A stretch of 35,102 nucleotides of DNA. Source: a virus. Made by a program: the position numbers and the translations under genes. The stretch covers positions 1 to 35,102 of the IMG/VR virus record IMGVR_UViG_3300020455_000046. One strand, written 5' to 3'. The notes below the pieces were generated by a model that saw only the letters and a program-made list of their open reading frames with translations, made no database searches and had not been told where the DNA came from. This document shows positions 20,954 through 35,102 of the stretch, piece after piece. The number at the start of each line of letters is the position of its first letter. Positions within the stretch are counted from its first letter, which is position 1.

Positions 20954-21606
20954 GCTCTTCTGTTCCTAACCGCCCCAGAACGATAGCTGTCTGTAGTGTC
21001 GTAATTCTCGCCCAGATTCTTGAGCTTTCCTAACGCATCTTCATATCTTCCTATATAAATCTGCATAACGTCTGCATCACCTTTTAGGAAAGTGTATGCT
21101 TCAACTAAACACCCATAAAACAAGGTTGACTCTGCATTTGTGCCTAGCCAGCTTGTGCCACTTGATGCCGTTGTAATTGATTCTGGCTTGTAAAAGTAAT
21201 GAAGCTCTACCGTGTAGTTTGTTGTGCCAGTCAGGTAGTTAGGTGTCGGTGCTAAAAGAAAATTAGATTCATCAAATATCGCGTAATACTTTGGCGTTCC
21301 AGTCGTTGTAGAAGCAGGGTACGCTTCTCTTATAAAGTTTACATCTTTAAATATAAGAAACTCATATCCAGTGTTATCTACAGACAAGGAATAAGGAGCC
21401 AAGAAATCAGATGGCATGGAAAGGTACTGGTTTCCCTGAGATGTGTTACCTGTAGCGTTTTTTCTAAAATCAGGCAACTGAACTGATTTAAGTATTCTGT
21501 CCTCTGCTTGCAAGATAATGGTTGGAAGATTATTAACGAAAGTAGTTTCCGTTGTCTCCAGATAATCCTGCAGAGCATTTTTTAGAGTTGTAAATGTCCA
21601 CGCCAT
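20950..21606 (-). CDS. tail adaptor protein (SU10-adaptor / T7 gp11-like), 218 aa
   Basis: The N-terminus (TFTTLKNALQDYLETTETTF, then NNLPTIILQAEDRILKSVQL) and the following beta domain (YLSMPSDFLAPYSLSV, YYAIFDESNFLLAPTP, VELHYFYKPESIT) match the adaptor proteins that join the portal to the nozzle in phages such as SU10. The C-terminal helical part (LFYGCLVEAYTFLKGDADVM, QIYIGRYEDALGKLK) is also typical. The ATG at 21606 is used because it overlaps the upstream stop (TAATG); a longer in-frame start 12 codons earlier is less likely. Confidence 0.85.
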   Translation of the reverse strand: MAWTFTTLKNALQDYLETTETTFVNNLPTIILQAEDRILKSVQLPDFRKNATGNTSQGNQYLSMPSDFLAPYSLSVDNTGYEFLIFKDVNFIREAYPASTTTGTPKYYAIFDESNFLLAPTPNYLTGTTNYTVELHYFYKPESITTASSGTSWLGTNAESTLFYGCLVEAYTFLKGDADVMQIYIGRYEDALGKLKNLGENYDTTDSYRSGAVRNRRA

Positions 21607-21950
21607 TAGCTGGTACTCACTGTTACTTTGCCCACCTCGCATTTCATATCAAGATTAAGCGTTTGTGTTCCGTATGCTGTCAATCCTCCACCAACTGGAT
21701 CAAATGCAGACAATGCTCTGCTTTCTGTTAACGACTTGTCAGGACGAGCATCTCTAATTGCTTGAGGATCGTCCATGTTAAGCTTTCCAAGCTGTAACTG
21801 GGGCTGGTCTTGATCAACCACATCATAACCAACCAAAAGTCCGTTTGGTCTTTGATTTTCTATTTGTTTAACAAGCTGATGTTTTGGATAGCGAAAACCA
21901 GTACGGTCACAAAATCCAAAAGCATGTTTTCCAGAAGCATATGAACTCAT
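21606..21950 (-). CDS. conserved virion-associated protein, 114 aa
   Basis: The sequence SGKHAFGFCDRTGFRYPKHQ, then LVKQIENQRPNGLLVGYDVV and DQDQPQLQLG, is one I recall from many marine phages, always between two connector-type genes. Two Cys (FCDRTGF and MKCEVG) and two His are present near the ends but no clear zinc-ribbon spacing. It starts with a four-base ATGA overlap to the upstream adaptor and ends with TAATG to the next. The role is unknown; a connector component fits the context. Confidence 0.83.
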   Translation of the reverse strand: MSSYASGKHAFGFCDRTGFRYPKHQLVKQIENQRPNGLLVGYDVVDQDQPQLQLGKLNMDDPQAIRDARPDKSLTESRALSAFDPVGGGLTAYGTQTLNLDMKCEVGKVTVSTS

Positions 21951-22639
21951 AAATTAGTATACCCACCGGGAGACACATACAAAGTATTTTTGTTAGCCGC
22001 ATCAGAAGCAAGATTCCATTGCTCTTCATAAATCTCTTTTAAAAGAGGAGCGACTTGAGCAGAGTCTCTATTTTTAATTGAAAGATAATAAGCAAGACCC
22101 GCAACTAAACAGGGAAGATATCTTGCAGGCACATCCACATTGTTTGAGGCAGGCTTTCCTGTGTCTTCTATTCTTTCCATATAATAGTAAAAAAACGTGT
22201 ACGTTGCCTGAGAGTCAGGCACAGGCCACAGGTTAATAGTAATATTGCTTGGAGATCTTTCTACATAATACTGAATGGGTCTGCCATCTGTAAGCTTATT
22301 AGTTAACTGGGCATACTGGCTAACTGATATTCTTTGCATAGAAAGATCGCTTTGCTTGTCGGTATCTCCTGCATCTGTTCTTAACAGTCCTTCAATAATG
22401 TCTAGTTTTTCTGCTGTTAAAGCATACGAAGACGTTCCAGCAGTTAACGCTTGAGAAGCACTTTTTACGCTCCACAAATTTAACCCCCTGTTCTGCCACT
22501 CAAGAAGAAGCAGATCCAAGCTCCTTCTCGCTGTACGATAATCGTATCCACTACGAGGCTCTCCACCTATTCTTTCATAAGCTTCTTCAACAATATCGCC
22601 TAGATCAAGATCAAATGCATATGTGCCGCTTGTAGCCAT
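21947..22639 (-). CDS. head-tail connector / P22 gp4-like adaptor, 230 aa
   Basis: The N-terminal part (DLDLGDIVEEAYERIGGEPR, YDYRTARRSLDLLLLEWQNR, then GLNLWSV) is the pattern of P22 gp4-type tail accessory factors, which bind the portal after DNA packaging. A beta domain follows (ITINLWPVPDSQATYTFFYY) and a C-terminal helical region (YLPCLVAGLAYYLSIKNRDS). The ATG overlaps the previous stop (TAATG). With the SU10-like adaptor and the gp10-like nozzle it would complete a short-tail connector. The exact family assignment is by resemblance. Confidence 0.85.
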   Translation of the reverse strand: MATSGTYAFDLDLGDIVEEAYERIGGEPRSGYDYRTARRSLDLLLLEWQNRGLNLWSVKSASQALTAGTSSYALTAEKLDIIEGLLRTDAGDTDKQSDLSMQRISVSQYAQLTNKLTDGRPIQYYVERSPSNITINLWPVPDSQATYTFFYYYMERIEDTGKPASNNVDVPARYLPCLVAGLAYYLSIKNRDSAQVAPLLKEIYEEQWNLASDAANKNTLYVSPGGYTNL

Positions 22640-22848
22640 TAAGTAACAATCCCTTTAGTTTTTCCTCTCATAGCAAGGCCATCTCTGCATTTAGCCATTT
22701 TTGCCCTGCCACCTTCATTCATTTTTGCTGTTCCAGCAAAAGGGCGATAACCAAGATCAACATCCATTATTTCTTTATTTCTTTTGTCGGCTTCTTTCTT
22801 TGCCTTTGATTCTATTTTAGCCTTTAGCTTGGCTATTATTTTTTTCAT
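22639..22848 (-). CDS. small basic protein, 69 aa
   Basis: Starts with a Lys/Ala helix (MKKIIAKLKAKIESKAKKEA) and ends with NEGGRAKMAKCRDGLAMRGK, a C-R-D-G-x-A-M-R-G-K-T-K-G signature that I recall from several marine phage groups. The ATG at 22848 has AAGG 8 nt upstream; a longer frame reaching 22896 overlaps the previous gene and adds an unlikely hydrophobic start. No function is assigned. It belongs to the set of small positively charged proteins in this genome. Confidence 0.78.
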   Translation of the reverse strand: MKKIIAKLKAKIESKAKKEADKRNKEIMDVDLGYRPFAGTAKMNEGGRAKMAKCRDGLAMRGKTKGIVT

Positions 22849-22858
22849 TTTGCTAACC

Positions 22859-23641
22859 TTAAAATCTAATAGAGTTATAAATATTGCTAAGATCAATCGG
22901 ATTATTCTTTAACCATTCTGCCCACTCTGCATTGCCCCAGTTTGACGTATCAACTGTTGGCGGGGTTACTGTTGTGGGAGTAGTGGTTGTTGGAGTGGTA
23001 GTTGTATCTGTTGGCACTGGTTCAGGAACAGTATCTTCTCTTGCCGCAGGTTCGGTTGGAGGGTTATACGGAGGGGGATATACTATCGACCTTTGACCCA
23101 TGCCTTGATATGGATTATACCCAGTTTGCGCCCCAAACATTCCCGCATATTGCATTGGCTGACCATAAAGACTTCCTGTGTTATAAGGATTTCTTGGGAA
23201 AGTATTTAAAGGAAAAGGGCCGCCAAAAGGACTTGGATACATTCTTTGACTAGGTTGATACTGAAGTGGACTCATGCCCATCCCCATGCCAAAACCACCC
23301 ATCATGTTGTACCCTGATCTGCTTCCCATGTTAAAAGGATTCATGTAAGCATTGGAATAGTTTTGCATGTCCATTGAGTTGCTGTAAGGACTCATGCTTC
23401 TGCCATAAGGATTAAACGTGCCGCCTTTCATTCCTGCTGGGCTTTGATATCCTCCCATTCCTCCATACATCCCGCCAAAAGACGGTTGATTTCTTATATA
23501 CGGGTTCATGCCATAACTAGACAAACCAGCCATCCTTGGATAATAAGTGTTTCCACTGTAAAGCTGTTGCCTAGGCTGCGGCTGCATCCTAGAGGACAAG
23601 GAATTATAATTAGACATCATACTTTCAAAAGGACTGTACAT
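22859..23641 (-). CDS. low-complexity Gly/Met/Tyr/Pro/Asn-rich protein, 260 aa
   Basis: Residues 1-190 are dominated by Gly, Met, Tyr, Pro, Asn and Ser (FGGMYGGMGGYQSPAG, MMGGFGMGMGMSPLQYQ), with almost no Lys. A Thr/Pro-rich linker follows (PTDTTTTPTTTTPTTVTPPT), then a short folded-looking end (WGNAEWAEWLKNNPIDLSNI). Such a composition suggests a disordered, possibly adhesive or phase-separating segment. The ATG at 23641 makes a one-base TGATG overlap with the HNH-like gene and has AGGAG 6 nt before it. The function is unknown; a virion or assembly protein is plausible. Confidence 0.8.
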   Translation of the reverse strand: MYSPFESMMSNYNSLSSRMQPQPRQQLYSGNTYYPRMAGLSSYGMNPYIRNQPSFGGMYGGMGGYQSPAGMKGGTFNPYGRSMSPYSNSMDMQNYSNAYMNPFNMGSRSGYNMMGGFGMGMGMSPLQYQPSQRMYPSPFGGPFPLNTFPRNPYNTGSLYGQPMQYAGMFGAQTGYNPYQGMGQRSIVYPPPYNPPTEPAAREDTVPEPVPTDTTTTPTTTTPTTVTPPTVDTSNWGNAEWAEWLKNNPIDLSNIYNSIRF

Positions 23642-23865
23642 CACGCTCTCCTAAAACTACGGTTCTTAGATTTGCTTACTACTCTAAGATTCTTACGCTT
23701 GTTGTTTTTGGGATTTCTGTCTTTATGATGAACATCTTTCCCATCGCCTTTTTTAACTTTTCCTGCCGCTGACATTTTTCTACGGGCAGCATTTCTTCCT
23801 GCTCTGTTTTTTTTCTGCTTAGAACTGGAATGATAATTATCGTACTCTTTGCGATAATTTCTCAT
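23641..23865 (-). CDS. small basic HNH-like protein, 74 aa
   Basis: The C-terminal half (DVHHKDRNPKNNKRKNLRVV, then SKSKNRS) follows the HNH-nuclease core pattern [DV]-x-H-x-[DN]-x-[NR]-x-x-N-N-x-x-x-N-L-x-x-[LV], with H-H-K-D and the N-L-R-V-V strand. The zinc-binding Cys pairs of full HNH enzymes are absent and the protein is short, so it may be a reduced nuclease or only a DNA-binding relic. About 40 percent of residues are Lys or Arg. The start overlaps the preceding stop (TAATG). Catalysis is uncertain. Confidence 0.8.
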   Translation of the reverse strand: MRNYRKEYDNYHSSSKQKKNRAGRNAARRKMSAAGKVKKGDGKDVHHKDRNPKNNKRKNLRVVSKSKNRSFRRA

Positions 23866-24200
23866 TACTTCTTCTTGGCAGGTTTTTTCTTGGCAGGGGC
23901 TTTTTTAGCAGGAGCTTTCTTGGCTGGAGCCTTTTTCTTGGCAGGGGCTTTCTTCTTTACTTCCCATGCCTCATTTTCTTTTGTGTCAGGATCATCCTTG
24001 GCAAAAGTTCCGTCTTTAGTCCTTGATCTGACAACCTCCACATCATTGCTCATTTCTTTTAAAATTCGCTTTGCTTCAGTTTCTGTCATCAAGTCAAAGA
24101 CAACGGTTTCATATGTGCCATCAGAGTTCTTTATACCAATCTGGTATACAGGATCTCCGTTATTCCAGTTTCCATTTTGAAAGACTTCAAGTTTAGCCAT
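23865..24200 (-). CDS. protein with histone-H1-like Lys/Ala/Pro tail, 111 aa
   Basis: Residues 1-80 form a small folded domain (LEVFQNGNWNNGDPVYQIGI, VVFDLMTETEAKRILKEM). Residues 82-111 are a tail of K-K-A-P-A-K repeats like the C-terminus of histone H1 or bacterial Hc1/AlgP-type proteins. Such tails neutralise DNA charge. The ATG lies 8 bases inside the previous gene, and the stop overlaps the next start (TAATG). A DNA-condensing or virion-internal role is inferred from the tail alone. Confidence 0.82.
   Translation of the reverse strand: MAKLEVFQNGNWNNGDPVYQIGIKNSDGTYETVVFDLMTETEAKRILKEMSNDVEVVRSRTKDGTFAKDDPDTKENEAWEVKKKAPAKKKAPAKKAPAKKAPAKKKPAKKK
23868..23957 (-). repeat. Lys/Ala/Pro codon repeats (H1-like tail)
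   Basis: This segment encodes residues 82-111, with repeated AAGAAAGCTCCTGCTAA-type units giving A-P-A-K-K four times. The repeat is imperfect at the base level and could expand or contract. Confidence 0.85.
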
Positions 24201-24600
24201 AGGATTTCACCATTGTCAAAACCACTGTATAAGCATCACCGCTGCTATGCCCCACTGTTGTGAAGTCAATGTCTCCAGTAACGCCAGAACCAGCATTATT
24301 GGGTATGCCAGTAAAGGACGTAAAGTCTAATTCGTCAGCGTAATCTGCTGGCAGGTGTGCCGCCAACACATTAGATGAAGCATCAAATTCTATTTTAACG
24401 CTCATGCCGACTGTAGAAAATTGTATCTTGCTGATCGCTACGCGAGTGCATGTAGCACCTGTCATTGGATCAACAGACAAAGCAGATACATCTACTTTTG
24501 CAACAGCAGACTCGCCTGAACCGTCACTAACATTAGTAAACTTCATAATCAGGTTTCGTGCGCCATCTTGGATTGTCTGAGAGGTTACTGCATCAGCCAT
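24193..24600 (-). CDS. small structural protein, 135 aa
   Basis: A beta-rich protein (QTIQDGARNLIMKFTNVSDG, VAISKIQFSTVGMSVKIEFD, then DAYTVVLTMVKSYG). I recall it as a common unassigned virion protein following the capsid gene in marine phages. The ATG follows GGAG by 7 nt. A terminator hairpin lies only about a dozen bases upstream of the start, so its expression depends on read-through. A capsid decoration or tail component role would fit, but is not shown. Confidence 0.8.
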   Translation of the reverse strand: MADAVTSQTIQDGARNLIMKFTNVSDGSGESAVAKVDVSALSVDPMTGATCTRVAISKIQFSTVGMSVKIEFDASSNVLAAHLPADYADELDFTSFTGIPNNAGSGVTGDIDFTTVGHSSGDAYTVVLTMVKSYG

Positions 24601-24611
24601 TGTATATCTCC

Positions 24612-24637
24612 AAAATAAAGGGGGGCTTTACGCCCCC
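24612..24637 (-). terminator. intrinsic terminator after the 175-aa gene
   Basis: On the minus strand a GGGGGC / GCCCCC stem (24637-24632 and 24626-24621) closes a five-base loop and is followed by a T-rich tract (24619-24612, TTTATTTT). It begins five bases past the stop codon of the 175-residue gene. The T tract is interrupted, so termination may be partial. Confidence 0.8.
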
Positions 24638-24642
24638 ATGTC

Positions 24643-25170
24643 TTATGACTGGTCAGTGAAGGCAGGAACATCCGCACCTTCTTGATAGCCCCAGATATAC
24701 CAATTGGTTGAATCTTTTGCCAGTACATTAATCTCAAATAAACCAAAATCCGTTAACGTCAGGATTGAATTTGAGTTTCCATCCGCATACACAGAGACAT
24801 TATCTGCGTTTGAGTCAAGATGAACGATACCGCCCAGATAGAAGTTTGTGTCTGATCCTGTATCAATAATCAGATTTTCTGCCTCTTCTGCCGCACCACC
24901 GTAAACCAGCTTAAAGAAAACACCAGCAGAGGGACTAGGCAAAGTCAAAGTGCAATTAGCTGACAGAGCAGGAACTACAGAGGTTCTTCCTCCATGAGCC
25001 GTTGCTGTTAGCGAAATAGCTGTTGTATCTGCCAAGGCAACTGGAGTGACCTGCAATCCGTTTCCGTCAAGGGTGAATTCAGTTGTGACAGCACCTGTTG
25101 TGCTGTTTTTAGATATGACCGTGAATCCATTCTCTGAACGGACGGGGCCATTAAAGGTTGTATTAGCCAT
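24643..25170 (-). CDS. structural protein following capsid gene, 175 aa
   Basis: The N-terminus (NTTFNGPVRSENGFTVISKN) and the end (FEINVLAKDSTNWYIWGYQE) suggest a beta-rich capsid-associated or head-fibre protein. The middle has LSANCTLTLPSPSAGVFFKL, a common beta-domain strand pattern in head-decoration proteins. The ATG has AGGAG 6 nt upstream. It is the only gene lying between two intrinsic terminators, directly after the major capsid gene, which implies high but separately tuned expression. Decoration or head-fibre is my best guess. Confidence 0.82.
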   Translation of the reverse strand: MANTTFNGPVRSENGFTVISKNSTTGAVTTEFTLDGNGLQVTPVALADTTAISLTATAHGGRTSVVPALSANCTLTLPSPSAGVFFKLVYGGAAEEAENLIIDTGSDTNFYLGGIVHLDSNADNVSVYADGNSNSILTLTDFGLFEINVLAKDSTNWYIWGYQEGADVPAFTDQS

Positions 25171-25212
25171 TATGTTCTCCTGTCTCGGCTAGTGTCTGCT
25201 TACGCAGTCAGG

Positions 25213-25234
25213 AAAAAAGGGGGCCGCAGCCCCC
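25213..25234 (-). terminator. strong intrinsic terminator after the major capsid gene
   Basis: On the minus strand GGGGGC-TGCG-GCCCCC (25234-25219) is followed by six Ts (25218-25213). It starts eight bases past the capsid stop codon. The stem is all G-C and the T tract unbroken, so this is a textbook terminator. It is in the same place as T-phi after T7 gene 10. Confidence 0.92.
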
Positions 25235-25241
25235 GATCAAG

Positions 25242-26180
25242 TTAAGAACTACCGGGAGATCCGTAGATTCCTAGTGGATCTGAAACGCCAAAGCTATAAC
25301 GCTCTCTGGCCTTATAACGAACATTACCTGTGTCAAAGTCTCCATCCATAGAAGTTTCAAGCGCAGTACGCTCAAATTGCTTCATTCCGTTAGGAACATC
25401 TGTAATGAGGAAAAAGGCATTTGAATCAGTCAGATAATGATTGATTGCATAGCCTTCAGGTATTGAACCGTTATTACGCAAAGCGTTAATGTCGTTATCA
25501 GCCGTTCCTACTCTGCCATCTGTTTCCAGAAGACGAGTTGCCACAAACTGTAACGCAGGCGGTACAACTAATCGTCTAGGACGAGCCGCAATCAAAAGTC
25601 CACGCTCATCGGTAAATGCTGCAATATTAATTACTGCATCTTCTAATGAAGTTTCGTTGAGATCAGCCGCTGTCGAAGGACGGTTGCTGTTTTTGCCACC
25701 GCTTACAAGTGGGTGTCCATCACCACCAGTTACACCGTCACCAGAAGCAGTAAACAGGTTAACCCCGTCACCAGACTGGTAAGAATTGGTGAAACCGTTG
25801 TTTAAAGGAAAAGCCGCTTTAACTTGCTTGGTGTACGCCATAGCGCGAGCTAATGCCTTGGTGTATCTAGCAGACAGGGAATCATAGAGGTTATCCTCCA
25901 TAGCTTCTTCTGTAATACTAAAGCCCATAGCAATAGTTTCGTGGTTATAGCGAGCCGTAAACGACTCCTGCGCTGAGTCATAACTGATGGCAGAACCTTC
26001 AGTCTTGACAGGTGCAGCAGCAAAACCCGAAAGTTTTACTTCCTCTTCAAATGAACGATCCGATGATTCAGTTTCGTAAATCACCGTATGCTCATCTTCG
26101 TACTTTCCATACTCAAGACCAAACAGGGCGTTAAGACCCGGTAAAAGCTCCTTGAGCATCTGCGCTCTTGAAATAGCCAT
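25242..26180 (-). CDS. major capsid protein, HK97 fold, 312 aa
   Basis: The N-terminus MAISRAQMLKELLPGLNALF, then YEDEHTVIYETESSDRSFEE (spine and E-loop region), GFSITEEAMEDNLYDSLSAR (spine helix), the A-domain pattern LEDAVINIAAF / RPRRLVVPPALQFVATRLLE and a C-terminal strand (FDTGNVRYKARERYSFGVSD) match HK97-fold major heads of the Mu gpT-like type. No separate N-terminal scaffold domain is seen; scaffold is a distinct gene upstream. Length suits the family. A strong terminator follows directly, which fits its need for the highest expression. Confidence 0.93.
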   Translation of the reverse strand: MAISRAQMLKELLPGLNALFGLEYGKYEDEHTVIYETESSDRSFEEEVKLSGFAAAPVKTEGSAISYDSAQESFTARYNHETIAMGFSITEEAMEDNLYDSLSARYTKALARAMAYTKQVKAAFPLNNGFTNSYQSGDGVNLFTASGDGVTGGDGHPLVSGGKNSNRPSTAADLNETSLEDAVINIAAFTDERGLLIAARPRRLVVPPALQFVATRLLETDGRVGTADNDINALRNNGSIPEGYAINHYLTDSNAFFLITDVPNGMKQFERTALETSMDGDFDTGNVRYKARERYSFGVSDPLGIYGSPGSS

Positions 26181-26192
26181 TACTTAGCCTCC

Positions 26193-26771
26193 TTATACGC
26201 CAGTGGTGTTCACATACTGATGGCCTACGTTAAATTTAACGATTACGTCAGTAAATGCATCACCTATCGCACTGTCAGGGCCATCAACAAAGTCAATAAG
26301 CCTTAACGGTAGCGTGTTAGTCGTAGCAGCAGTTGAACCGTCAACGGCATTTTTGCTGCGCCCAATTGTAGTAGAACCCGCTGTTTGAACCACTGCAAAG
26401 TTATTACCTAAAACAGTTTGTGCCAAACTTGCATCGCTCTGCATCTTCATTAAGACATCTGGATCGTCTAGGACGTAAGCCATAATGTCAGAAGCCGCTG
26501 TGCTTGCGGGAAAGGTCTGGTTAAATGTTTTCTGGGAGGTGCTTGGATCTGTGTAAGAACATCCCATAAACACGCCTACAGTAGTCAAAGAAGTTGTTCC
26601 TGTGTCTTTTTCTACTGTTCCAGAACTCACTATTTTTAAAAAATCACCATAGAAGATAGCTGTACTGTAACCGCTTGCAATCTTAATATGGCGAACTTTT
26701 CCAGTAAAAGAACCGCTAGCACTTAATGTGCCAATGGGTTCCGCACCAGAGGGAGTCGCTGTAGCAGACAT
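26193..26771 (-). CDS. head-associated protein, possible decoration protein, 192 aa
   Basis: A Ser/Thr/Gly-rich beta protein (GKVRHIKIASGYSTAIFYGD, VGVFMGCSYTDPSTSQKTFN, LPLRLIDFVDGPDSAIGDAF). It lies directly upstream of the capsid gene, 12 bases apart, in a position often used by head decoration or stabilisation proteins. GGAG lies 8 nt before the ATG. I recall similar unassigned proteins in marine phages. A structural role is likely, the exact one unknown. Confidence 0.82.
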   Translation of the reverse strand: MSATATPSGAEPIGTLSASGSFTGKVRHIKIASGYSTAIFYGDFLKIVSSGTVEKDTGTTSLTTVGVFMGCSYTDPSTSQKTFNQTFPASTAASDIMAYVLDDPDVLMKMQSDASLAQTVLGNNFAVVQTAGSTTIGRSKNAVDGSTAATTNTLPLRLIDFVDGPDSAIGDAFTDVIVKFNVGHQYVNTTGV

Positions 26772-26815
26772 GATAATTCTCCATACATATTAAAAGAATG
26801 AGGAAAGTTAAAAAC

Positions 26816-27268
26816 TTATCCTCTGCCAAAGGTTGTGCGCGATGTTCGCTCTGTATTCATCAGAGGCATTCGCGGATCATTTTCTCTCATGAAACTGTTA
26901 TCAACCGATTCCATTTGTTGGCTAGCCATCTTTTGATAATACTCTTGGCGTTGTTTCATATCTTCCTCAGGGGCTTTGCACAATAACAAACCACCGATTT
27001 CAATATTTCCTTCAAACCTTGAGCCTACATCAGACATTACTTCCAACTCTGGATGATCTTCAGCCCTCACTGGAACCCAACCTTCCCTAAACTTCTGGGA
27101 GACATTGGTGTTGTCAGCGTGATTTAGTGTGCTTGTCCTGACCCATCTAAAAACATAACCGTCTTTAGGGTCTGGAATAGGCAACACAGATGCTGGTTTC
27201 CAAGAATCACTTGTACGAATTTCAGTTTCACGGGCTTCGTTAGCCCTTGGGGTGCGCTTCTCAGCCAT
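26816..27268 (-). CDS. head-region protein, 150 aa
   Basis: The protein has a basic start (AEKRTPRANEARETEIRTSD), a central folded part (DGYVFRWVRTSTLNHADNTN, FREGWVPVRAEDHPELEVMS) and a charged helical end (DMKQRQEYYQKMASQQMESV). I recall it beside capsid genes of marine podoviruses. It overlaps the scaffold gene by eight bases. A role in head assembly is inferred from position; no enzyme motif is visible. Confidence 0.82.
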   Translation of the reverse strand: MAEKRTPRANEARETEIRTSDSWKPASVLPIPDPKDGYVFRWVRTSTLNHADNTNVSQKFREGWVPVRAEDHPELEVMSDVGSRFEGNIEIGGLLLCKAPEEDMKQRQEYYQKMASQQMESVDNSFMRENDPRMPLMNTERTSRTTFGRG

Positions 27269-28355
27269 TTGACATATCCTCTACGAGTTGTTTGGCATAC
27301 TGTTCGTTAGTTAGACCTAGCCGCTTTGCGAGAGCAACTTGAGTTTGCGTTAACTTAACTTTGCGAGGTTTAGACCCGTTGTTCCGCGATGCGGGGGTCA
27401 CCACCATCGATGGACTTCGGGACTTCGCTTGAGAAGAACGCTCCTCTTTCTCATTTGATTCAGTCCCGAAATATTCAGGAAACCTAGAACGCATAGTACG
27501 ATCTATCGTTTCAAAATATTCATCTGAATTGGGATCAACGCCCTCGTTTTTAACGAGCTTTTCGTGAACCCCGTAAGCAAGAGCGGTCATATCCTTATGT
27601 TCATCATCCCCGAACCAAGGGTTTTCTTCTGACCACATTTTTGCTTTTGCGCTAACTTCAGGCTTTTCTGCCTGTTGTTGCGGTTGTTGCGGCATCATAT
27701 TCTGTTGCTGCATTGCTTGTTGTTGTGCAAATTGAGGATTTTGCTGCATGTGCTGCATATACTGTTGATATTCAGCTTGCCGCCTCTGCATATCCTGCTC
27801 ATGATTACTGGCCTCACGCAACTCTGCCTGTGCTGTAATCAGTGCTTCCTGAGTAGAAATAACCTTATCGGTATCTCCTTCGTCATAAGCCGCTTTGTAT
27901 TGAGACTTTGCTTGCTCTACGGCTAATGTCGCCCTGTCTTTAATTTGCGTAACAAGCATGTCTTCGCCACGCCTGATAACATCTTCATACTGTTTGTTCT
28001 GGTTAGCATATTGTTGCGCGACCTTAACAGCTTCTTCACGCATTTTTTCAGCAGCTTCACGCTGCCTACGCTCTTCATGCTGCTGATAACGCAACTTGTT
28101 AATTCGCTTTTTGACCTTTTCACTGTAGCCTTCAAGCTCTTCGTCCTCATCTGATGAATCAACTGTTTCAGATGCTTCCTGCTTAGGAGGCGGTCTTTGA
28201 TCTTCAGGCGGCCTGTCATCTACTATTTCCAGATCAAGATCTATTTCATTCTCACTTGTATCTGGCTTGGTAATTTTTGTTCTAACACCAAGAAATTTTT
28301 CTTCAAAAGAAGTTTGCGGATTGTTATCAACCTCTAACGCCATTTCTTCGCTCAT
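27261..28355 (-). CDS. scaffolding protein candidate, 364 aa
   Basis: An acidic start (residues 1-75, Asp/Glu-rich), a long coiled coil (residues 78-200, KVKKRINKLRYQQHEERRQR and onward), a Gln/Met-rich stretch (residues 195-230, QQQAMQQQNMMPQQPQQQAE) and a basic C-terminus (RKVKLTQTQVALAKRLGLTN) that would bind the capsid. This is the usual design of phage scaffolds, and the gene lies between portal and capsid genes. It starts with a four-base overlap (ATGA) with the co-chaperonin gene. An alternative ATG four codons in is possible. Confidence 0.85.
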   Translation of the reverse strand: MSEEMALEVDNNPQTSFEEKFLGVRTKITKPDTSENEIDLDLEIVDDRPPEDQRPPPKQEASETVDSSDEDEELEGYSEKVKKRINKLRYQQHEERRQREAAEKMREEAVKVAQQYANQNKQYEDVIRRGEDMLVTQIKDRATLAVEQAKSQYKAAYDEGDTDKVISTQEALITAQAELREASNHEQDMQRRQAEYQQYMQHMQQNPQFAQQQAMQQQNMMPQQPQQQAEKPEVSAKAKMWSEENPWFGDDEHKDMTALAYGVHEKLVKNEGVDPNSDEYFETIDRTMRSRFPEYFGTESNEKEERSSQAKSRSPSMVVTPASRNNGSKPRKVKLTQTQVALAKRLGLTNEQYAKQLVEDMSNG

Positions 28356-28720
28356 ATCTTCTCTACCCCTCTTGGATCTTCAACGACTGCTTCTACACTA
28401 TCGTCATTTATTAACCTGAATTCCTTGCCATGTATCCTAAAACGAGTACCTGAATAAGAACGCATCACAATCCAGTCCTGTTCCTTGCAATAAGGCCCAG
28501 AGGGAAACCGTGTTTCGTCTTTATAAGCATCTGGGCCAAGCTTTAGCACAAAGCCACAGATTGATCCGACTTCCTCTACATGAAGAGTCTGTTTCGCTTT
28601 AAGTATGCCGCCTTCCGTTTTTTCGTCAGGCTCTGGCAAAGCAATTAATATTTTGTAACCTTTGGGGTCAGGAAGTTGGTGAGCCGTTCTTGGCTCTTCT
28701 TCCGTTTTTACTGCTTCCAT
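28352..28720 (-). CDS. GroES-like co-chaperonin, 122 aa
   Basis: The core (GYKILIALPEPDEKTEGGIL, then the mobile-loop region AKQTLHVEEVGSICGFVLKL and GPDAY, later PYCKEQDWIVMRSYSGTRF) follows the Cpn10/GroES order: start strand, E-K-T-x-G-G-I mobile loop, V-G-x-V strand, and Y-x-G/V-x-x-x-x-x-G-x-x-F/Y-x-L end. It would cap host GroEL to help fold capsid proteins, as T4 gp31 does. The ATG at 28720 is chosen because AGGAG lies 7 nt upstream; a frame start 45 nt earlier lacks as good a site. No GroEL gene is visible. Confidence 0.88.
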   Translation of the reverse strand: MEAVKTEEEPRTAHQLPDPKGYKILIALPEPDEKTEGGILKAKQTLHVEEVGSICGFVLKLGPDAYKDETRFPSGPYCKEQDWIVMRSYSGTRFRIHGKEFRLINDDSVEAVVEDPRGVEKI

Positions 28721-28734
28721 TTTTTGCTCCTGCA

Positions 28735-28778
28735 CTGGAATACGGTGTCCAGAGCCACCTTGCATCGCCTTTGCGATG
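28735..28778 (-). other. two hairpins in the gap before the co-chaperonin gene
   Basis: CATCGC/GCGATG (28763-28768 and 28773-28778, four-base loop) and CTGGA/TCCAG (28735-28739 and 28748-28752) lie in a 60-base gap. No T tract follows on the minus strand, so they are not terminators; RNA processing or translational control is possible. Confidence 0.5.
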
Positions 28779-28780
28779 AA

Positions 28781-28978
28781 TTAGCCTGCCTCGATTCTCT
28801 CCTTGAGGTCGAGAAGTTCCCTTTCTGCTAGTGCTAATCCTTGGATTACACCGCAGCTATGGGTATATTCGCTATAGTCCTTACAAGATCCAGTAGCAAC
28901 GTGGTCAGACATTTCATTCATTTTCTGCCTGAGAAGATCCCTGAGTACATCCATAGAGTTATCAAACGCCCTACTCAC
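28781..28978 (-). CDS. small conserved protein, 65 aa
   Basis: A helical, charged small protein (NSMDVLRDLLRQKMNEMSDH, then CGVIQGLALAERELLDLKER) with two Cys. I recall it near portal genes of marine podoviruses, without known function. It starts at GTG 28978, overlapping the portal stop by 8 bases, with AAGGA 9 nt upstream. A small head-assembly helper would fit its place between the portal and the co-chaperonin. Confidence 0.78.
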   Translation of the reverse strand: MSRAFDNSMDVLRDLLRQKMNEMSDHVATGSCKDYSEYTHSCGVIQGLALAERELLDLKERIEAG

Positions 28979-31412
28979 TCAGTGTGTCCTTAACCACATC
29001 TACTCCTCTTTCAAAACCTTTTAACATCTCTGCGGAGGAAAGCCTGTTTTCGTCTGTAGCAAGCTTTGCCCCTATCCTTGCGCTCTCTATGCGCTCTTCC
29101 TGATCCATTTTTTCCCTGTCAAGAACGGCTTTTTCCTGCGCTTTTTGCATATCAAGCTGTATTTTTGCCATTTCAGACTGCGCTTTAGCCATTGCTTCGC
29201 CTTCCTTGATCTGAAGCTCTCTTTGCTGCATCTGTATGACAGGATCTTGCATTTGTTTGGCATTTTGCTCGGCCTGCGCCATTTGCTGGGCTTTTCCAGT
29301 AACTTGAGCAGACGCTGGGGCAACAAGACGCGATATACGCAGTTCAATATCCTCAGGTAAAGGCTCATCTGGGTGCGGAAGCTCTACACCAAGCTCTTTT
29401 TCTACCTTTGCACGATATGCAAAGGCAATATGCTCCTGAATATGGGCTGCACCAGCCGCCATAATCTGTTTTGCAGCGGGTGACTGCTGCATTATCTTCA
29501 TAATCTCTGGATTTTGCGCCATTGACATGTGAGTCTGTATATGCGCCTCATGATCCTGATATATAAACGCCTTGACAGGCTTTCCATTAAGCATATTCAT
29601 GTTTTCAGACACAGGATCAGTCGGTTTAATGTCATCTTCCGTGGGAATAATCTTTTCAGCATCCCTGATTCCCAGAACTTCAATCATTTGGCGGTGCAAA
29701 AGCGGTAAATCGTACATTTGAGGGGCTTGAGCCGCTAATTGCAGTGCCGCTTGGTACTGCATGATGCGTTGAGCCATCGTTCCAGCGTTAGGATCGCTAA
29801 CAGGAATGATATCTATGCTGTCATCAAAGTCCTGAACCGTTAATTCACGCCCTTTTGTATCGTATGGGTACGATGAAGGCCCATAATCACGGACTAAAGA
29901 GACTAAAATCTTTAATTCCTTGCCAACAGAGTGGTGAACCCGCGCCTGAACTGCGCTCATCACCTTCATTTCGCGCTCTAATATCGCTAAAGTTGTCCCT
30001 ACTGGGGCTTCTCCGTTAATATCTGCGGCTTTTACGTCTGCTGCGGAGGCAAATCTACGTCCCTCACTGACAATATCACCTAAAAGCTGGTATAAAACAC
30101 TGCTTGGCTCTTTATATGGGAGGAAAGAAATGCTATCCCGTATCGCCCCACCGGGGACATCAACATCCCGAAACTCACCGGGCATTATCGGAGTGTCATC
30201 ACCCTTAATCCTAAGACCCCTAGCCTTCAAACCACCGGGCAGATTAGCCAAAGTACCCGCATCCACCAACTGTCTAAGCAATGAAGTGGCTGATTTGGAC
30301 AACCCACCAATCATATGGACTAAACCAAAGCCATAGAATCCAAGGCCGGGCAAATACTGATAATGCACAAAGTGCTGCCTACGCATCTTGTTAGGGTCAT
30401 CTTCAAGCCAGTTGCGCCTGATCGATAAAATTGTTGATGATGACTTGTCAATAGTGACAACATAAGGCAATCCTATGCCTGTTTCCTCACCATTCGCCAT
30501 ATCTTCAAAGCCTGCCAGATCTATATCGACATGCATCTCAAGTAGTGTGTGGCGATGATCAAACTCATAGTTGTCAGAATCACCTGTTAATCGGTTATAT
30601 TTTTCCTGTATATCGCTAACATCAGGGGTAGGAGAAGGAATATCTACATCCCTGTAAAATCCTGCAAATTGTAACTTCTTGATTTCATTAGAAGTTTTCT
30701 TCATAACATGCGTTGCTCTCTCGCATGTCGTTAAATCGGACGCTCCGTAACTGACCACAAAATCCTCTGCAGGAACAAACATGGCACAAGGTCTGTCCAT
30801 GTTCGGGTCGTAATATACTTTCCTGAACGCTGATCCCGCTATGGGAAGGGAGAAGAGCAATTTCTCCGTTTCAGTTCGATACTCCACCATTCTCTGGGTA
30901 ATAAGGTAATTAAGATATTCTTTTACCCGTGAAGCCTGTTTTACCTTATCCTCTGTTAACTGCCCTACAATATTTGTTTTAACTGGGCCAGCAGCGGGAT
31001 AAATTTCCTGTATAGTCTGTGCCTGAAAGCGAACAACTGCTTCAGAAAGCATAGGATGGAATACGCCACACGCACCATCCCAAGGGGTTGTCCTGTCTTC
31101 AAACTTCAGTCCAAGCAAGTCCAGACCTTTAATATAGGACTGTTCCCAGTCTGAGCGACTGTCCCTGTCTGCATTAAAAGCACCTACAAGCTCGGATGAG
31201 ATCTCTGTCAGATCCCTGTCATCAATGAATTCTGCCAGATTAGCATCATGAGACATTCCCCCTGTCATGGGGTTGTTAGGATCAAAATCCACCAATACCC
31301 CGCCATCAGGGGTTTCAATAGAAACCGACTCAGGGTTTTCTATTTCTATCTGTAAGGCTGGCTCCCCCTGTAACTCCAGAGGAGAGGGGGTCATTGCGCT
31401 ATCAATTGCCAC
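28971..31412 (-). CDS. portal protein, P22 gp1-like, 813 aa
   Basis: The clip/wing core is clear: SELVGAFNADRDSRSDWEQS, TPWDGACGVFHPMLSEAVVR, SVGKELKILVSLVRDYGPSS and PIMPGEFRDVDVPGG. The C-terminus (residues 660-813) is a long charged helix (AQAEQNAKQMQDPVIQMQQR and onward) like the barrel of P22 gp1. Length is close to the P22 portal (725) plus a longer barrel. It would form the dodecameric DNA channel at one vertex. The start is GTG at 31412, with AGGA upstream; an internal ATG six codons later has no ribosome site. Confidence 0.94.
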   Translation of the reverse strand: MAIDSAMTPSPLELQGEPALQIEIENPESVSIETPDGGVLVDFDPNNPMTGGMSHDANLAEFIDDRDLTEISSELVGAFNADRDSRSDWEQSYIKGLDLLGLKFEDRTTPWDGACGVFHPMLSEAVVRFQAQTIQEIYPAAGPVKTNIVGQLTEDKVKQASRVKEYLNYLITQRMVEYRTETEKLLFSLPIAGSAFRKVYYDPNMDRPCAMFVPAEDFVVSYGASDLTTCERATHVMKKTSNEIKKLQFAGFYRDVDIPSPTPDVSDIQEKYNRLTGDSDNYEFDHRHTLLEMHVDIDLAGFEDMANGEETGIGLPYVVTIDKSSSTILSIRRNWLEDDPNKMRRQHFVHYQYLPGLGFYGFGLVHMIGGLSKSATSLLRQLVDAGTLANLPGGLKARGLRIKGDDTPIMPGEFRDVDVPGGAIRDSISFLPYKEPSSVLYQLLGDIVSEGRRFASAADVKAADINGEAPVGTTLAILEREMKVMSAVQARVHHSVGKELKILVSLVRDYGPSSYPYDTKGRELTVQDFDDSIDIIPVSDPNAGTMAQRIMQYQAALQLAAQAPQMYDLPLLHRQMIEVLGIRDAEKIIPTEDDIKPTDPVSENMNMLNGKPVKAFIYQDHEAHIQTHMSMAQNPEIMKIMQQSPAAKQIMAAGAAHIQEHIAFAYRAKVEKELGVELPHPDEPLPEDIELRISRLVAPASAQVTGKAQQMAQAEQNAKQMQDPVIQMQQRELQIKEGEAMAKAQSEMAKIQLDMQKAQEKAVLDREKMDQEERIESARIGAKLATDENRLSSAEMLKGFERGVDVVKDTLSE

Positions 31413-31664
31413 CTAGCCGTTTTTCCTGAACATCTGATCTCTTGCCGCGCCAGAACCACGGGCTATTGTTCCTACTCCACCCGCAGCCATACCTTTAGGT
31501 TTCATTTCGTCTGCCCTGACTGCACCACCTTTAGCGTATCCCTTGCTTTTCATTACAGGAACACCGCCCATAGCCATGCCTTTGGGCTTCATTGCCCTGC
31601 CGCCTTTCATCATGCCTTTGGTTTTTATCTTGCCGCCAGCCTTGTAACCTTTAGACTTCTTCAT
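31413..31664 (-). CDS. Lys/Gly/Met repeat protein, 83 aa
   Basis: The whole protein is made of short repeats related to M-K-P-K-G-M-A-x-G-G and K-S-K-G-Y-x-x-G-G (KGYKAGGKIKTKGMMKGG; AMKPKGMAMGGVPVMKSKGY). The ATG at 31664 has GAGG 6 nt upstream, better than a longer frame start. It overlaps the previous gene by 14 bases and abuts the portal gene. Basic, Gly-rich and probably disordered, it may bind DNA or membrane; no function is known to me. Confidence 0.78.
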   Translation of the reverse strand: MKKSKGYKAGGKIKTKGMMKGGRAMKPKGMAMGGVPVMKSKGYAKGGAVRADEMKPKGMAAGGVGTIARGSGAARDQMFRKNG

Positions 31665-32340
31665 CGTCAACCTCGGAATATAAGTTGTCAAATACCCTGT
31701 TTACATCCAGCGTGTAATCCAGATCAGATTTACTGTAATGGACATGCTGAGACGGTCTAAAATCAGGTGCGCCTTCTCCCATTTCAAACCAAGCGGGATG
31801 AGTTACCCTGACCCTATTGTTTGGTAACGCTATAATGTTCCCTGTCCATTTTCCTGCATCAAGCAGTTCCAGCACATGGGATTGTTTGTGCTGTGCAGGA
31901 TCATCACCAATTTCGGAATCGGTATAATCCACGGTAAAATAATACTTGGCGGGATAAAACTCACCATCAATCTTTGCCAACCAAGGACACGGTGTACATC
32001 TGTCCAGAACATATACTGCATGCGTCCTCGATGAACAGTCCCAAGGTTGTGCCGCCCATACAGGCATCGGTTCAGGCCACTCCTCAAAAGGGGTATCACC
32101 CACCAGTGCCGTAATTGGCATTCTTGCCCACATTGCCCCGCCATGAACATTGGGTTCATCGTTGTCGTAGGTTTCGGCACCAGTAAATATAATCTGAAAA
32201 CTCAGGCTCCTGCAGGGTATTGTGGTGACGGCTATTGCCATCGCATGCAGAAACTCGCCATGATACTGGTTGTGATTGTGGGTGTATTCCCTGCGTACCC
32301 AGCATTTAAAATGCGGTACGTTGCTTTGCAAAAAAGGCAT
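31651..32340 (-). CDS. conserved protein next to terL, His/Cys-containing, 229 aa
   Basis: I recall this protein beside terminase genes of marine phages but know no function. It has HNHNQYHGEFLHAMAIAVTT, later GGAMWARMPITALVGDTPFE, DCSSRTHAVYVLDRCTPCPW, and a C-terminal HPAWFEMGEGAPDFRPSQHV. The clustered His, and Cys in C-x11-C-x2-C arrangement, could bind metal. The ATG at 32340 is chosen over one 20 codons earlier because AAGGA lies just before it. It starts 13 bases after terL, so it may act with packaging. Confidence 0.78.
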   Translation of the reverse strand: MPFLQSNVPHFKCWVRREYTHNHNQYHGEFLHAMAIAVTTIPCRSLSFQIIFTGAETYDNDEPNVHGGAMWARMPITALVGDTPFEEWPEPMPVWAAQPWDCSSRTHAVYVLDRCTPCPWLAKIDGEFYPAKYYFTVDYTDSEIGDDPAQHKQSHVLELLDAGKWTGNIIALPNNRVRVTHPAWFEMGEGAPDFRPSQHVHYSKSDLDYTLDVNRVFDNLYSEVDDEEV

Positions 32341-32353
32341 AAGTTTCCTTATG

Positions 32354-33877
32354 TTAGTAGTATTGTGCTGTTTTCTGTAGAACAGGCTCCTCTTCTTCAT
32401 CTGAGTTAAGGCTTAAAAAGCCTCCCTGCCTGAAGCGTAGTAACGCCTGTGTAGAGGAATCTACGAGATCGTCATGCTCCCCAGAAGGGAAAGACGCAAA
32501 CTCCTGTATCACCTCTTCAGCAAAGCGGGTTTCTGGACACCAGACCACACCAGATGCAAACAGATCAGCCACTGCATTAACACGGGCGATCTTGTCATTA
32601 CCTCTTGAGGGGGTGTATTCAGAAACAGGAATGCCCATTGCCCTTAATTCAAAGATCAAGGGCATACCAGCAGCTTTGCCTTCTACAATAAAGGCATCAG
32701 GTTGCACATCGTTCCACATCTCATAAGCAACCTTCTTGAGTTCAGGGAACTCCAGACGATCCTTATAGGCATCGAGCAATATGATATTAGGGACAGTTGC
32801 CCCTTCTTCATCAGGAGAGTAGAACACTCCCCATGTGGTGCAGGCTGAATAGTCAGCCCGTTGTGTCTTGAGAAACGCTGTATCCCAAGACTGTATAACA
32901 AATTCGCAGTAAGGAGGATTATCCTTTTCCCAGATCTTCCACCACTCACGTTTTACTAATGCGCCCTCTTCCGAGGTCGGGTTTTGCTGATACTGTGCGC
33001 TCCACTTGGAAGACGGTAGTTCATTTTTAAGCGCGGTTAATTCCGCGAGGCTCCAGAACTCTGGCCACAGGGCTTTGCCTGAGGGCATAATTGCTGGAAA
33101 TTCTATAACTTCCCATTCATCCACGCCTTCGCGTTGAACGGAAGCCTTTATAATCTTTCCTGTCAGATCCCTCATATGCCATCGCGTCATCACAACAACA
33201 ATAGCACCACCGGGTTGTAATCGCTGTCGAGGGCCAGACGTATACCAGTCATAGGTGCGGTCAAATACCGCTGGGTCTGCGCTTTGTCCTTCCTGTTCGC
33301 TGTGAGGGTCATCGATAATAAGAAGGTCAGCACCCTTACCTGTTACTGCGCCACCAACCCCTATAGCAAAATACTCACCACCAAGATTGGTACTCCATCT
33401 CCCCGCAGCCTTGGAGTCAGCCCTTAACGACAGCTTGGGGAAAACCTTTTTGAAATCCTCGCTGTTAACAAGGTTTCTTACTTTCCGTCCAAACCCCACC
33501 GACAGTTCAGCGGTGTGTGCGGTCTGTATGATCTTTTTTTCTGGGTACTGACCCAGAAACCATGCTGGTAACAGGTAAGAAGCAAACTCGGACTTTGTAT
33601 GTCTTGGCGGCATGTTAACTATAAGCCGCTTGAGTTCACCTTTGGCAATCCTTTCAAAAGCATTAGCCATTATCGCGTGGTGCCTACCTTCTATAAAAGC
33701 AGGCCACATATATTGCACAAAACCAAGATAGGACTGTTGTGCCTTTTCTTTATTTTGTATTTCGTCCAGTTCTTCAAGAAGCCCTAAAACAGACTTCTGC
33801 TCTTCTGCAGGAAGGTTTTTAACATTCTTTAATAAACTAGGATCAATTGTTCCATGTGGAACATTTTTTTCAGACAT
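32354..33877 (-). CDS. terL: terminase large subunit
   Basis: A full-length packaging ATPase-nuclease (507 aa). The ATPase Walker A-like loop is MPPRHTKS (residues 89-96), Walker B is LLIIDD (185-190) with E194 following in DDPHSE, and a coupling motif is near VVVMTRWH (227-234). The RNase H-type nuclease has D332 (SWDTAF), E399 (FIVEG) and D469/D470 (HDDLVD). It drives genome translocation through the portal and cuts concatemers. GGGGG lies before the ATG. A promoter and terminator leader precede it, unusual for this gene. A hairpin lies within its first codons. Confidence 0.96.
   Translation of the reverse strand: MSEKNVPHGTIDPSLLKNVKNLPAEEQKSVLGLLEELDEIQNKEKAQQSYLGFVQYMWPAFIEGRHHAIMANAFERIAKGELKRLIVNMPPRHTKSEFASYLLPAWFLGQYPEKKIIQTAHTAELSVGFGRKVRNLVNSEDFKKVFPKLSLRADSKAAGRWSTNLGGEYFAIGVGGAVTGKGADLLIIDDPHSEQEGQSADPAVFDRTYDWYTSGPRQRLQPGGAIVVVMTRWHMRDLTGKIIKASVQREGVDEWEVIEFPAIMPSGKALWPEFWSLAELTALKNELPSSKWSAQYQQNPTSEEGALVKREWWKIWEKDNPPYCEFVIQSWDTAFLKTQRADYSACTTWGVFYSPDEEGATVPNIILLDAYKDRLEFPELKKVAYEMWNDVQPDAFIVEGKAAGMPLIFELRAMGIPVSEYTPSRGNDKIARVNAVADLFASGVVWCPETRFAEEVIQEFASFPSGEHDDLVDSSTQALLRFRQGGFLSLNSDEEEEPVLQKTAQYY
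33848..33870 (+). other. hairpin plus T-run inside terL start (plus-strand sense)
   Basis: TGTTCC-ATGT-GGAACA (33848-33863) followed by seven Ts (33864-33870) resembles a weak intrinsic terminator on the plus strand, antisense to terL codons 3-10. It may block antisense transcripts. It is also partly fixed by the coding sequence. Confidence 0.35.
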
Positions 33878-33886
33878 AGGTTCCCC

Positions 33887-33921
33887 CTAGGATTGTCCTA
33901 GCTAGGATTAACCTACTTAGG
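33887..33921. promoter_or_regulatory. CTAGG half-site array ahead of terL
   Basis: Between the terminator and the terL ribosome site are CTAGGA-TTG-TCCTAG (33887-33901, perfect inverted repeat), CCTAGCTAGG (33897-33906, perfect palindrome), CTAGGATTAACCTA (33902-33915) and CCTA-CT-TAGG (33912-33921). A further copy of the 18-base form, 16 of 18 identical, lies at 33982-33999. They look like operator half-sites or RNA hairpins controlling terL start. The function is inferred. Confidence 0.6.
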
Positions 33922-33924
33922 TAT

Positions 33925-33952
33925 AAAAAAAGGGATTGCACCAAGCAATCCC
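33925..33952 (-). terminator. intrinsic terminator in the terS-terL gap
   Basis: On the minus strand GGGATTGC-TTGGT-GCAATCCC (33952-33932) is followed by seven Ts (33931-33925). Stem and tract are textbook. It lies 48 bases before the terL start, downstream of terS and of the promoter at 34031-34060, so it can act as attenuator or as the end of a terS transcript. Confidence 0.92.
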
Positions 33953-33981
33953 GATGAGTTATATCAGTCTCCAGATATGCG

Positions 33982-33999
33982 CTAGCTAGGAATGACCTA
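33982..33999. repeat. second copy of CTAGCTAGGA-type repeat
   Basis: CTAGCTAGGAATGACCTA matches 33898-33915 at 16 of 18 bases. It sits between the promoter and the terminator, so the two copies flank the terminator hairpin. This could be an operator pair. Confidence 0.7.
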
Positions 34000-34030
34000 G
34001 ATCTAAACAGAACTACTTTTAGATTTTAGC

Positions 34031-34060
34031 ATTTTATTGCTGTTGACAAATCAATGTCAA
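34031..34060 (-). promoter_or_regulatory. sigma70-type promoter towards terL
   Basis: On the minus strand the -35 box is TTGACA (34060-34055), the spacer is 18 bases, and the -10 box is TAAAAT (34036-34031), five of six matching. The transcript would start near 34024 and meet the terminator at 33952 after about 75 bases. The -35 box is one arm of the inverted repeat TTGACA-N6-TGTCAA (34043-34060), which could be a repressor site. Confidence 0.75.
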
Positions 34061-34146
34061 GCATTTTTTTAGAAATTTTTTGAGGGTGCTGGGACTCCTG
34101 CCCGTTATCCTGATAAAAAAAGGGATGAGTAACATAGTGACATTAG

Positions 34147-34164
34147 TTAAATTAGGTAATTTAA
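34147..34164. promoter_or_regulatory. 18-bp operator-like palindrome
   Basis: TTAAATTA-GG-TAATTTAA is a perfect inverted repeat with a two-base centre, in the non-coding region between terS and terL. Its size and A-T content suit a repressor or an integration-host-factor-like site. No adjacent promoter is clear. Confidence 0.5.
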
Positions 34165-34195
34165 TGAGCAAAACTCTATATATAGATAGAGAGGT

Positions 34196-34222
34196 GGGTG
34201 CGGGCGAAAGGGGGGGATGGGG
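34196..34222 (+). other. putative G-quadruplex motif
   Basis: Four runs of three or more G (34196-34198, 34202-34204, 34210-34216, 34219-34222) with loops of three, five and two bases meet the usual G3+N1-7 rule on the plus strand. The surrounding DNA is otherwise A-T rich. It lies about 70 bases from the terS stop, in the terS-terL gap where a packaging site could be. Confidence 0.65.
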
Positions 34223-34292
34223 TCAGCTAGAAAATGATAGTAGAAAGCGAGAAAAAGACTGAAATCGTAAAAACTCCTGCAAAATCAACGAC

Positions 34293-34850
34293 TTAGTGTC
34301 TAGTCCCATCATCATCAGCCGATCCCGCTATAGTAGTCTCAGCCTCAAGACTGCTACCTTGCTGGTCACTGGCTACTGATAGCCTCCGTTCTAGTTCGAT
34401 CATGACATCCTGAGCCGTTCTATCGATTGTCTCAGTGTGTTGACGCTCAATAAATAAACCGTTCGCCTTGCCTAATAGCTCCGCACTTTTCAATCTCGCC
34501 ATTATATTGGGCGAAGTATCCGCACTGTCCATAGTGGAGCGGAGCATATCCAGAACCCGCTCAGAATCTGTTAGCTGTCTAGCTACCTGACTAGCCTGCA
34601 TTTTCTGACGCATTGCCGCAACATGCTCAGATTGCATTATGGCAACATTAGGGTTATCCGCTAGCTTTGCATAGAGCTTACAAGCTTCTACCCTTACCGC
34701 ATTCGATGACATTGTTTTAACGTCATAGGCATATCTATAAGCATCAGCTAGCGTCATAGGGCTACCAGTGTCATTATCGCCCACTACCGCCATTATGAAC
34801 GCTCGTTGCTTCTTGGTTAAACCTTGCTCTTTGACTCTTGACTCGCTCAT
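34293..34850 (-). CDS. terS: terminase small subunit
   Basis: The N-terminus LTKKQRAFIMAVVGDNDTGS, then LADAYRYAYDVKTMSSNAVR and VEACKLYAKLADNPNVAIMQ, matches the DNA-binding domain of phage terminase small subunits (helix-turn-helix region, then P-x-V). The middle is a coiled coil (VAAMRQKMQASQVARQLTDS) and the C-terminus an oligomerisation helix (DVMIELERRL) with an acidic tail. It would recognise the packaging site and regulate TerL. It precedes terL in the usual order but is separated by 415 bases of non-coding DNA. Confidence 0.9.
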   Translation of the reverse strand: MSESRVKEQGLTKKQRAFIMAVVGDNDTGSPMTLADAYRYAYDVKTMSSNAVRVEACKLYAKLADNPNVAIMQSEHVAAMRQKMQASQVARQLTDSERVLDMLRSTMDSADTSPNIMARLKSAELLGKANGLFIERQHTETIDRTAQDVMIELERRLSVASDQQGSSLEAETTIAGSADDDGTRH

Positions 34851-35102
34851 GACCTGCTATCCCTAATAGTTTCCGCTCTCATTACACTATATATAGCTAG
34901 AAGTCCAGTAAATACACCACAAATAGGCCATAAAGTGCTGATTTGCCGTTCTAGGTCACTTGTACCATTCGTAAGCTATTGATTTATAAGAAGTTTTTTA
35001 ACGAAAACTCCGTGACGCGATTTTAAGCACCTTACCCATGCCGTAGTATACCTTTTAATACTTTGTCACCATGAAGCTCTCAGGGCGTTATAGTGGCATA
35101 GT
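34851..35102. other. non-coding right end of window
   Basis: This 252-bp stretch has no convincing gene. It includes an A-T rich element (TATATATAG, near 34893-34900) and CTAG sites but no confident -35/-10 pair. It should contain the terS promoter and perhaps the boundary with the early genes outside the window. No tRNA or terminator was seen. Confidence 0.5.

Follow-up and report, generated by a model that had tools for sequence, protein, structure and literature searches.

The gap between the small and large terminase subunit genes of this virus carries a promoter that, judged by comparison of related sequences, is real, deeply conserved, and family-wide. In the window, by which we mean the whole 35,102-base virus record analyzed here, this promoter is followed by an intrinsic terminator located ahead of terL. 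The reading we favor, with somewhat less than an even chance of being right, is that this promoter drives the late operon and that polymerase has to overcome the terminator in its leader, probably through protein-mediated antitermination. The sequence observation made in the initial annotation was confirmed and its interpretation partly supported: the branch describing a late-operon leader appears plausible, and the branch describing a small RNA gene unlikely.

Elements between terS and terL in the window

The window carries terminase, portal, capsid, and tail genes, encoded on the minus strand. The window ends 252 bases upstream of terS, and the early region is absent from it. The two terminase genes and the elements found between them are listed below.

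34293..34850, minus strand: terS, small terminase subunit gene (185 aa; PHROG 51 terminase small subunit, E 6e-8)
34155..34216, minus strand: conserved noncoding block 3' of terS, with a C7 run (34216-34210) and TATCTATATATAGAGTTTTGCTCATTAAATTACC (34188-34155), from a weight-matrix scan of relatives
34061..34124, minus strand: conserved upstream blocks CCCTTTTTTT (34124-34115) and AGGAGTCCCAG (34099-34089) and the A-tract CAAAAAATTTCTAAAAAAATGC (34082-34061), recurrent in relatives
34055..34060, minus strand: -35 hexamer TTGACA, from the promoter-pattern match and conservation in relatives
34043..34048, minus strand: conserved spacer motif TGTCAA
34031..34036, minus strand: first -10 hexamer TAAAAT
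34023..34028, minus strand: second -10-like hexamer TAAAAT, a candidate sigma-dependent pause element or the -10 of an overlapping promoter
33982..34000, minus strand: upstream palindromic repeat CTAGGTCATTCCTAGCTAG, from a repeat search of the window
33932..33952, minus strand: terminator hairpin GGGATTGC-TTGGT-GCAATCCC, from stem and energy, with a hairpin at the same place in many relatives
33925..33931, minus strand: T7 tract completing the intrinsic terminator
33887..33916, minus strand: downstream palindromic repeats (in part CTAAGTAGGTTAATCCTAGCTAGGACAATCCTAG) running up to the terL ribosome-binding site, from the same repeat search
32354..33877, minus strand: terL, large terminase subunit gene (507 aa; PHROG 38, E 7e-102), the first gene after the leader

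The minus-strand promoter described earlier in front of terL was found with all its elements, TTGACA, an 18-nt spacer, and TAAAAT. The pair matches 11 of the 12 consensus positions and is the top-scoring site in 20000-35102. A second TAAAAT, absent from the initial annotation, begins 2 nt past the end of the first. The score does not by itself set the terL promoter apart, since 0.65 sites matching at 11/12 are expected in shuffles of the whole 35-kb window, both strands included, and one is present; it stands out only through its position and its conservation.

The perfect intrinsic terminator reported between this promoter and terL also held up. Its hairpin has a perfect 8-bp stem (about -12.9 kcal/mol alone) and is directly followed by the T7 tract, ahead of the terL start at 33877. 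A perfect 8-bp stem combined with at least six T residues occurs nowhere else in the window, with 0.07 expected in shuffles. No promoter-like site (at least 9/12) was found between the terminator and the terL start. As the terminator lies between terL and the only promoter-like site, expression of terL would require read-through.

The predicted leader RNA is 91-99 nt long and its fold z-score is modest (-1.74). No start codon precedes the hairpin, the first ones being inside it, no rival (antiterminator) fold competes for pairing in the leader RNA, and no Rfam family matches it. These three results disfavor an attenuator made of RNA only, and attenuation by a leader peptide or a riboswitch is unlikely; read-through would therefore need either a protein, by antitermination, or leakiness of the terminator.

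A 14-nt exact repeat, ATAAAAAAAGGGAT, is found at 34113-34126 and 33923-33936 of the window. The 3' arm and T-run of the terminator duplicate the conserved CCCTTTTTTT block located upstream of the promoter, and the T-run may have arisen by copying of that block. Another strong terminator-like hairpin, GGGGGCTGCGGCCCCC followed by T6, is located at 25234-25217 on the minus strand, after the major capsid gene and within the late operon, and would be a second place in this operon where read-through would matter.

Promoter and leader in related phages

The comparison set consisted of 97 distinct loci with terS and terL, the window included, from which 41 distinct lineages were used for promoter and leader anatomy. 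In all relatives examined, a terS-family gene is found immediately upstream on the same strand. The window terL shares about 80-85% identity with the terL of many uncultured contigs; for Pelagibacter phage HTVC027P, phage 023Pt_psg01, and phage DSL-LC04, the figure is 55-57%. The GC content of the window is 43%, against 36% in the HTVC027P stretch compared, so the host of the window phage need not be SAR11. A blastn search of the terS-terL gap against cultured phages returned short, weak matches only. HTVC027P, 023Pt_psg01, and DSL-LC04 (L082, L083, and L084) do not have the promoter and leader of the window's group at the terL start; immediately 5' of their terL start codon is an AAAAATT..TGCAAAATTTT tract similar to the window A-tract. 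A replication origin was also considered and set aside, GC skew being uninformative here because it follows gene direction.

The initial annotation had made its reading depend on the conservation of both promoter and stem in close relatives. For the promoter, this conservation is clear: a unit of the same design is found downstream of terS in 72 of the 97 loci, whereas dinucleotide shuffles give 0.85. Loci were picked with a pattern that already contained the -35, GTCAA, and one -10; because these elements were preset, the independent evidence consists of the shuffle comparison, the double -10, and one locked distance. The -35 is mostly TTGACA or TAGACA in the 41 lineages. GTCAA follows the start of the -35 at 11-14 nt in 39 of them (9 and 17 nt in single cases), the first -10 is present at 16-18 nt spacing in 40 (9.5 expected), and the second -10, often nearer the consensus than the first, lies 8-10 nt beyond it in 39. 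GTCAA and the second -10 stay 19-20 nt apart although the other promoter distances vary, and these two elements therefore seem to belong together. A double -10 with the second nearer the consensus fits two overlapping ordinary promoters as well.

Genes have been inserted before terL in several lineages, and the promoter unit remains at the operon head. The lineages with at least one gene inserted between the leader and terL are L015, L016, L017, L019, L020, L022, L026, and the L050 group. A palindromic operator of the form TTGACA..TGTCAA was rejected because the spacing of its half-sites varies by several nucleotides between lineages, which a rigid dimer would not tolerate. The promoter pattern occurs once in each of 7 records and is absent from 5 others, and is thus not regulon-wide; a loose scan of the collection with this pattern gave few further relevant loci.

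Downstream of the promoter, a leader of about 150-200 nt contains palindromic repeats and a central hairpin and/or T-run, and also includes the first gene's ribosome-binding site. The repeats are of the CTAG type in the window and L050/L224, of the GGTAATTACC/TGATCA type in L002/L005/L011, ACGT-rich in L013/L021, and TAGTACATACTA in L055. Apart from the promoter, we detected no sequence conservation of the leader between lineages.

With regard to the stem, the outcome was mixed. Strict intrinsic terminators were found in the sense leaders of 5 of the 41 lineages (window/L001, L218, L221, L270, and L329), with 0.53 expected in shuffles and none on the antisense strand; with looser settings, the counts were 21 sense, 10.9 in shuffles, and 1 antisense. 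The five strong terminators are located at the same place, but their sequences are unrelated, and most relatives have the common central hairpin without a strong T-run. The window terminator is therefore one of several lineage-specific terminators that occupy a common location; it is not found in every lineage, nor is it simply a product of chance. The fold z-scores of the relatives' leaders are alike on both strands (mean -2.8 sense, -3.2 antisense), a symmetry that points to DNA-level palindromes more than to a selected RNA.

Possible DNA sites in the gap

The terL leader sits inside a longer conserved noncoding terS-terL region, part of which may be a packaging site. A literature search found no published account of a terS-terL leader, a late-operon small RNA, or a conserved noncoding terS-terL region. 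The block at 34155-34216 (minus strand), directly 3' of terS, consists of the C7 run and then a TATACATAGTRTTCCRCTCAAAYRATTACC-like stretch. Blocks of this C-run/TATACATAG type scored above the weight-matrix threshold in 87 of the 97 loci (about 1.4 expected), and a C6+ run precedes the block in 88 (6.3 expected). The block is retained in 17 loci where the promoter pattern finds nothing and is missing in 7 loci with overlapping terS and terL (L376, L378-L380, L382, L387, and L390). We consider it a better packaging-site candidate than the leader repeats.

A partial Mantel test of the repeats against TerS, corrected for TerL, gave an r of 0.42 (p 0.001). This signal comes from the C-terminal part of TerS, which is encoded beside the gap; the N-terminal part, taken as the DNA-binding part, gave a partial r of 0.09-0.11, so the repeats do not follow the DNA-binding part of TerS as in the pac/cos pattern. 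Coevolution of TerS and the repeats was rejected in favor of linkage, because the signal lies in the C-terminal part and unrelated TerS proteins occur among close relatives that have common repeats. A fixed cos end in the gap was also judged unlikely, as contig ends do not cluster there. TerS is only 22-38% identical between clades whose TerL share 80-85% identity, and its N- and C-terminal parts differ in their relationships; the sequences suggest domain swapping in TerS.

A 16-bp palindrome of the TGTTCCACRTGGAACA type, which we take to resemble bacterial parS, was observed at the terL start in the window (33848-33863) and in L002-L004, L031, L034, L035, L038, and L043. Among 399 loci, this palindrome at the terL start is nearly confined to three lineages; L387 has another parS-like palindrome at 47-62. 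In HTVC027P, CGTTTCACGTGAAACA, close to the canonical parS sequence, is found near the terS region at about 16.3-16.4 kb of the record.

It is unlikely, in our view, that the repeats and their central dyad constitute a DNA site (a terminase pac site or operators of a phage regulator), with the hairpin a by-product of the palindromes and the T-run incidental in the window. The flanking of the dyad by palindromic repeats, the strand-symmetric folding, and the location between terS and terL all speak for such a site. They are opposed by the failure of the repeats to track the N-terminal part of TerS, by L221, L224, and L247, which have common repeats despite TerS proteins that are about 60% different, and by the bias of the terminators to the sense strand. 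The better packaging candidate, the C-run/TATACATAG block, is moreover kept where the leader is missing; the scatter of contig ends argues against a fixed cos end and is silent on headful pac. The earlier proposal of a dedicated phage small RNA gene, here of about 91-99 nt, has become very improbable: a promoter and a terminator without a gene between them are the anatomy of a small RNA, but the leader is unconserved in sequence outside the promoter, has no Rfam match, and folds modestly with no preference for the sense strand, and most relatives have no terminator to set its 3' end.

Read-through of the leader and known switches

Under protein-mediated antitermination, the reading we favor, host sigma-70 polymerase would start near 34024-34016, as predicted from the sequence and conservation of the promoter. 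Unmodified polymerase would mostly stop at the terminator (33952-33925), yielding the 91-99 nt RNA, and polymerase passing the terminator would express the late genes. Judged by anatomy, the paired -10 hexamers, together with TGTCAA at its fixed distance, may form a sigma-dependent pause where a phage protein loads; once loaded, this protein would enable the polymerase to resist terminators, in the manner of Q at lambda-type late promoters and of AlpA at its own promoter. Other lineages keep the promoter and often the hairpin, mostly with a weak tail, and the strength of the block would then vary by lineage.

The conditional leader of the initial annotation, an antitermination switch for the whole late operon, survives in part. 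The conserved promoter, the anatomy of tandem -10 elements and terminator, and the persistence of the unit at the operon head argue for it; the restriction of strong terminators to 5 of the 41 lineages counts against it, as does the failure to find a Q-family gene. Searches with Antiterm (PF03589) and Phage_antitermQ (PF06530) gave no match in nine relatives' records, some of them fragmentary, and none of the 20 proteins of the L055 genome was an antiterminator by PHROGs. PF06323 also gave no match in relatives' records, but its control was equally silent. These searches agree as well with one ordinary late promoter, or perhaps two that overlap, followed by a leaky terminator that lowers terL and late expression or insulates them from terS transcripts, with no regulated antitermination, a possibility that we regard as rather doubtful. 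The variable and mostly weak terminators of the relatives would suit it and the two -10 elements may be two start sites, but it accounts poorly for the fixed distance between GTCAA and the second -10 while the rest varies, and for strong terminators that keep appearing at one location although their sequences are unrelated.

The window phage group is related to the widespread HTVC023P/HTVC027P-type pelagiphages (PMC9599517). No function has been assigned to any early gene of HTVC027P, and that these genes start phage transcription is only a guess (PMC12753301). With its pause-like anatomy, the conserved late promoter offers a concrete DNA template for fishing out a putative antiterminator, and a search for the group's packaging signal could be aimed at the conserved noncoding terS-terL region. 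A broader proposal, which we put forward with clear reservation, is that this marine phage family has a lambda-pR'-like pause-and-antitermination late switch within that region, with an antiterminator unrelated to known Q and a leader terminator that is strong or weak by lineage.

Pac sites of the P1 and SPP1 type have short repeats around a central region beside the terminase genes. Repeats lie by the terminase genes here too, including TGATCA repeats in some relatives, but they are located in a transcribed leader and do not track the N-terminal part of TerS. In the lambda gene order, the late promoter pR' comes after the Q gene, whereas the terL promoter comes after terS and before terL. The lambdoid pR' promoters (Q; phages lambda and 21) otherwise resemble the terL leader in heading a late operon with a sigma-70 promoter, a conserved motif between -35 and -10, a -10-like hexamer near the start, and a leader terminator, and Q depends both on a binding element that lies between -35 and -10 and on a -10-like sequence early in the transcribed region (PMC6606751). 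They differ in that the second hexamer here begins 8-10 nt after the first, a strong terminator is present in a minority of lineages, and no Q-family protein was found in the nine records searched.

The AlpA-controlled alpB promoter of Pseudomonas aeruginosa likewise has a binding element between -35 and -10; its -10-like sequence spans the start (-1 to +5), and an intrinsic terminator follows (PMC9371919). The alpB promoter drives a bacterial lysis cassette with the spacer motif GGGACG, in contrast to a phage late operon with TGTCAA. Assuming a transcription start 7 nt after the first -10, the second hexamer begins at about -4 in the window and between -4 and -2 in relatives; its AlpA counterpart begins at -1. 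For Q and AlpA alike, the published role of the -10-like sequence is to cause a sigma-dependent pause. Of the features shared by Q and AlpA systems, the sequence and its conservation indicate a sigma-70 promoter heading the late genes, a -10-like sequence where the transcribed region begins (39/41 lineages), TGTCAA between -35 and -10 as a conserved candidate for the protein binding element, and an intrinsic terminator before the genes in the window and, at the strict threshold, in 5/41 lineages. We do not assign the terL leader to the Q/AlpA class; with limited to moderate confidence, we suggest that it works like such a switch.
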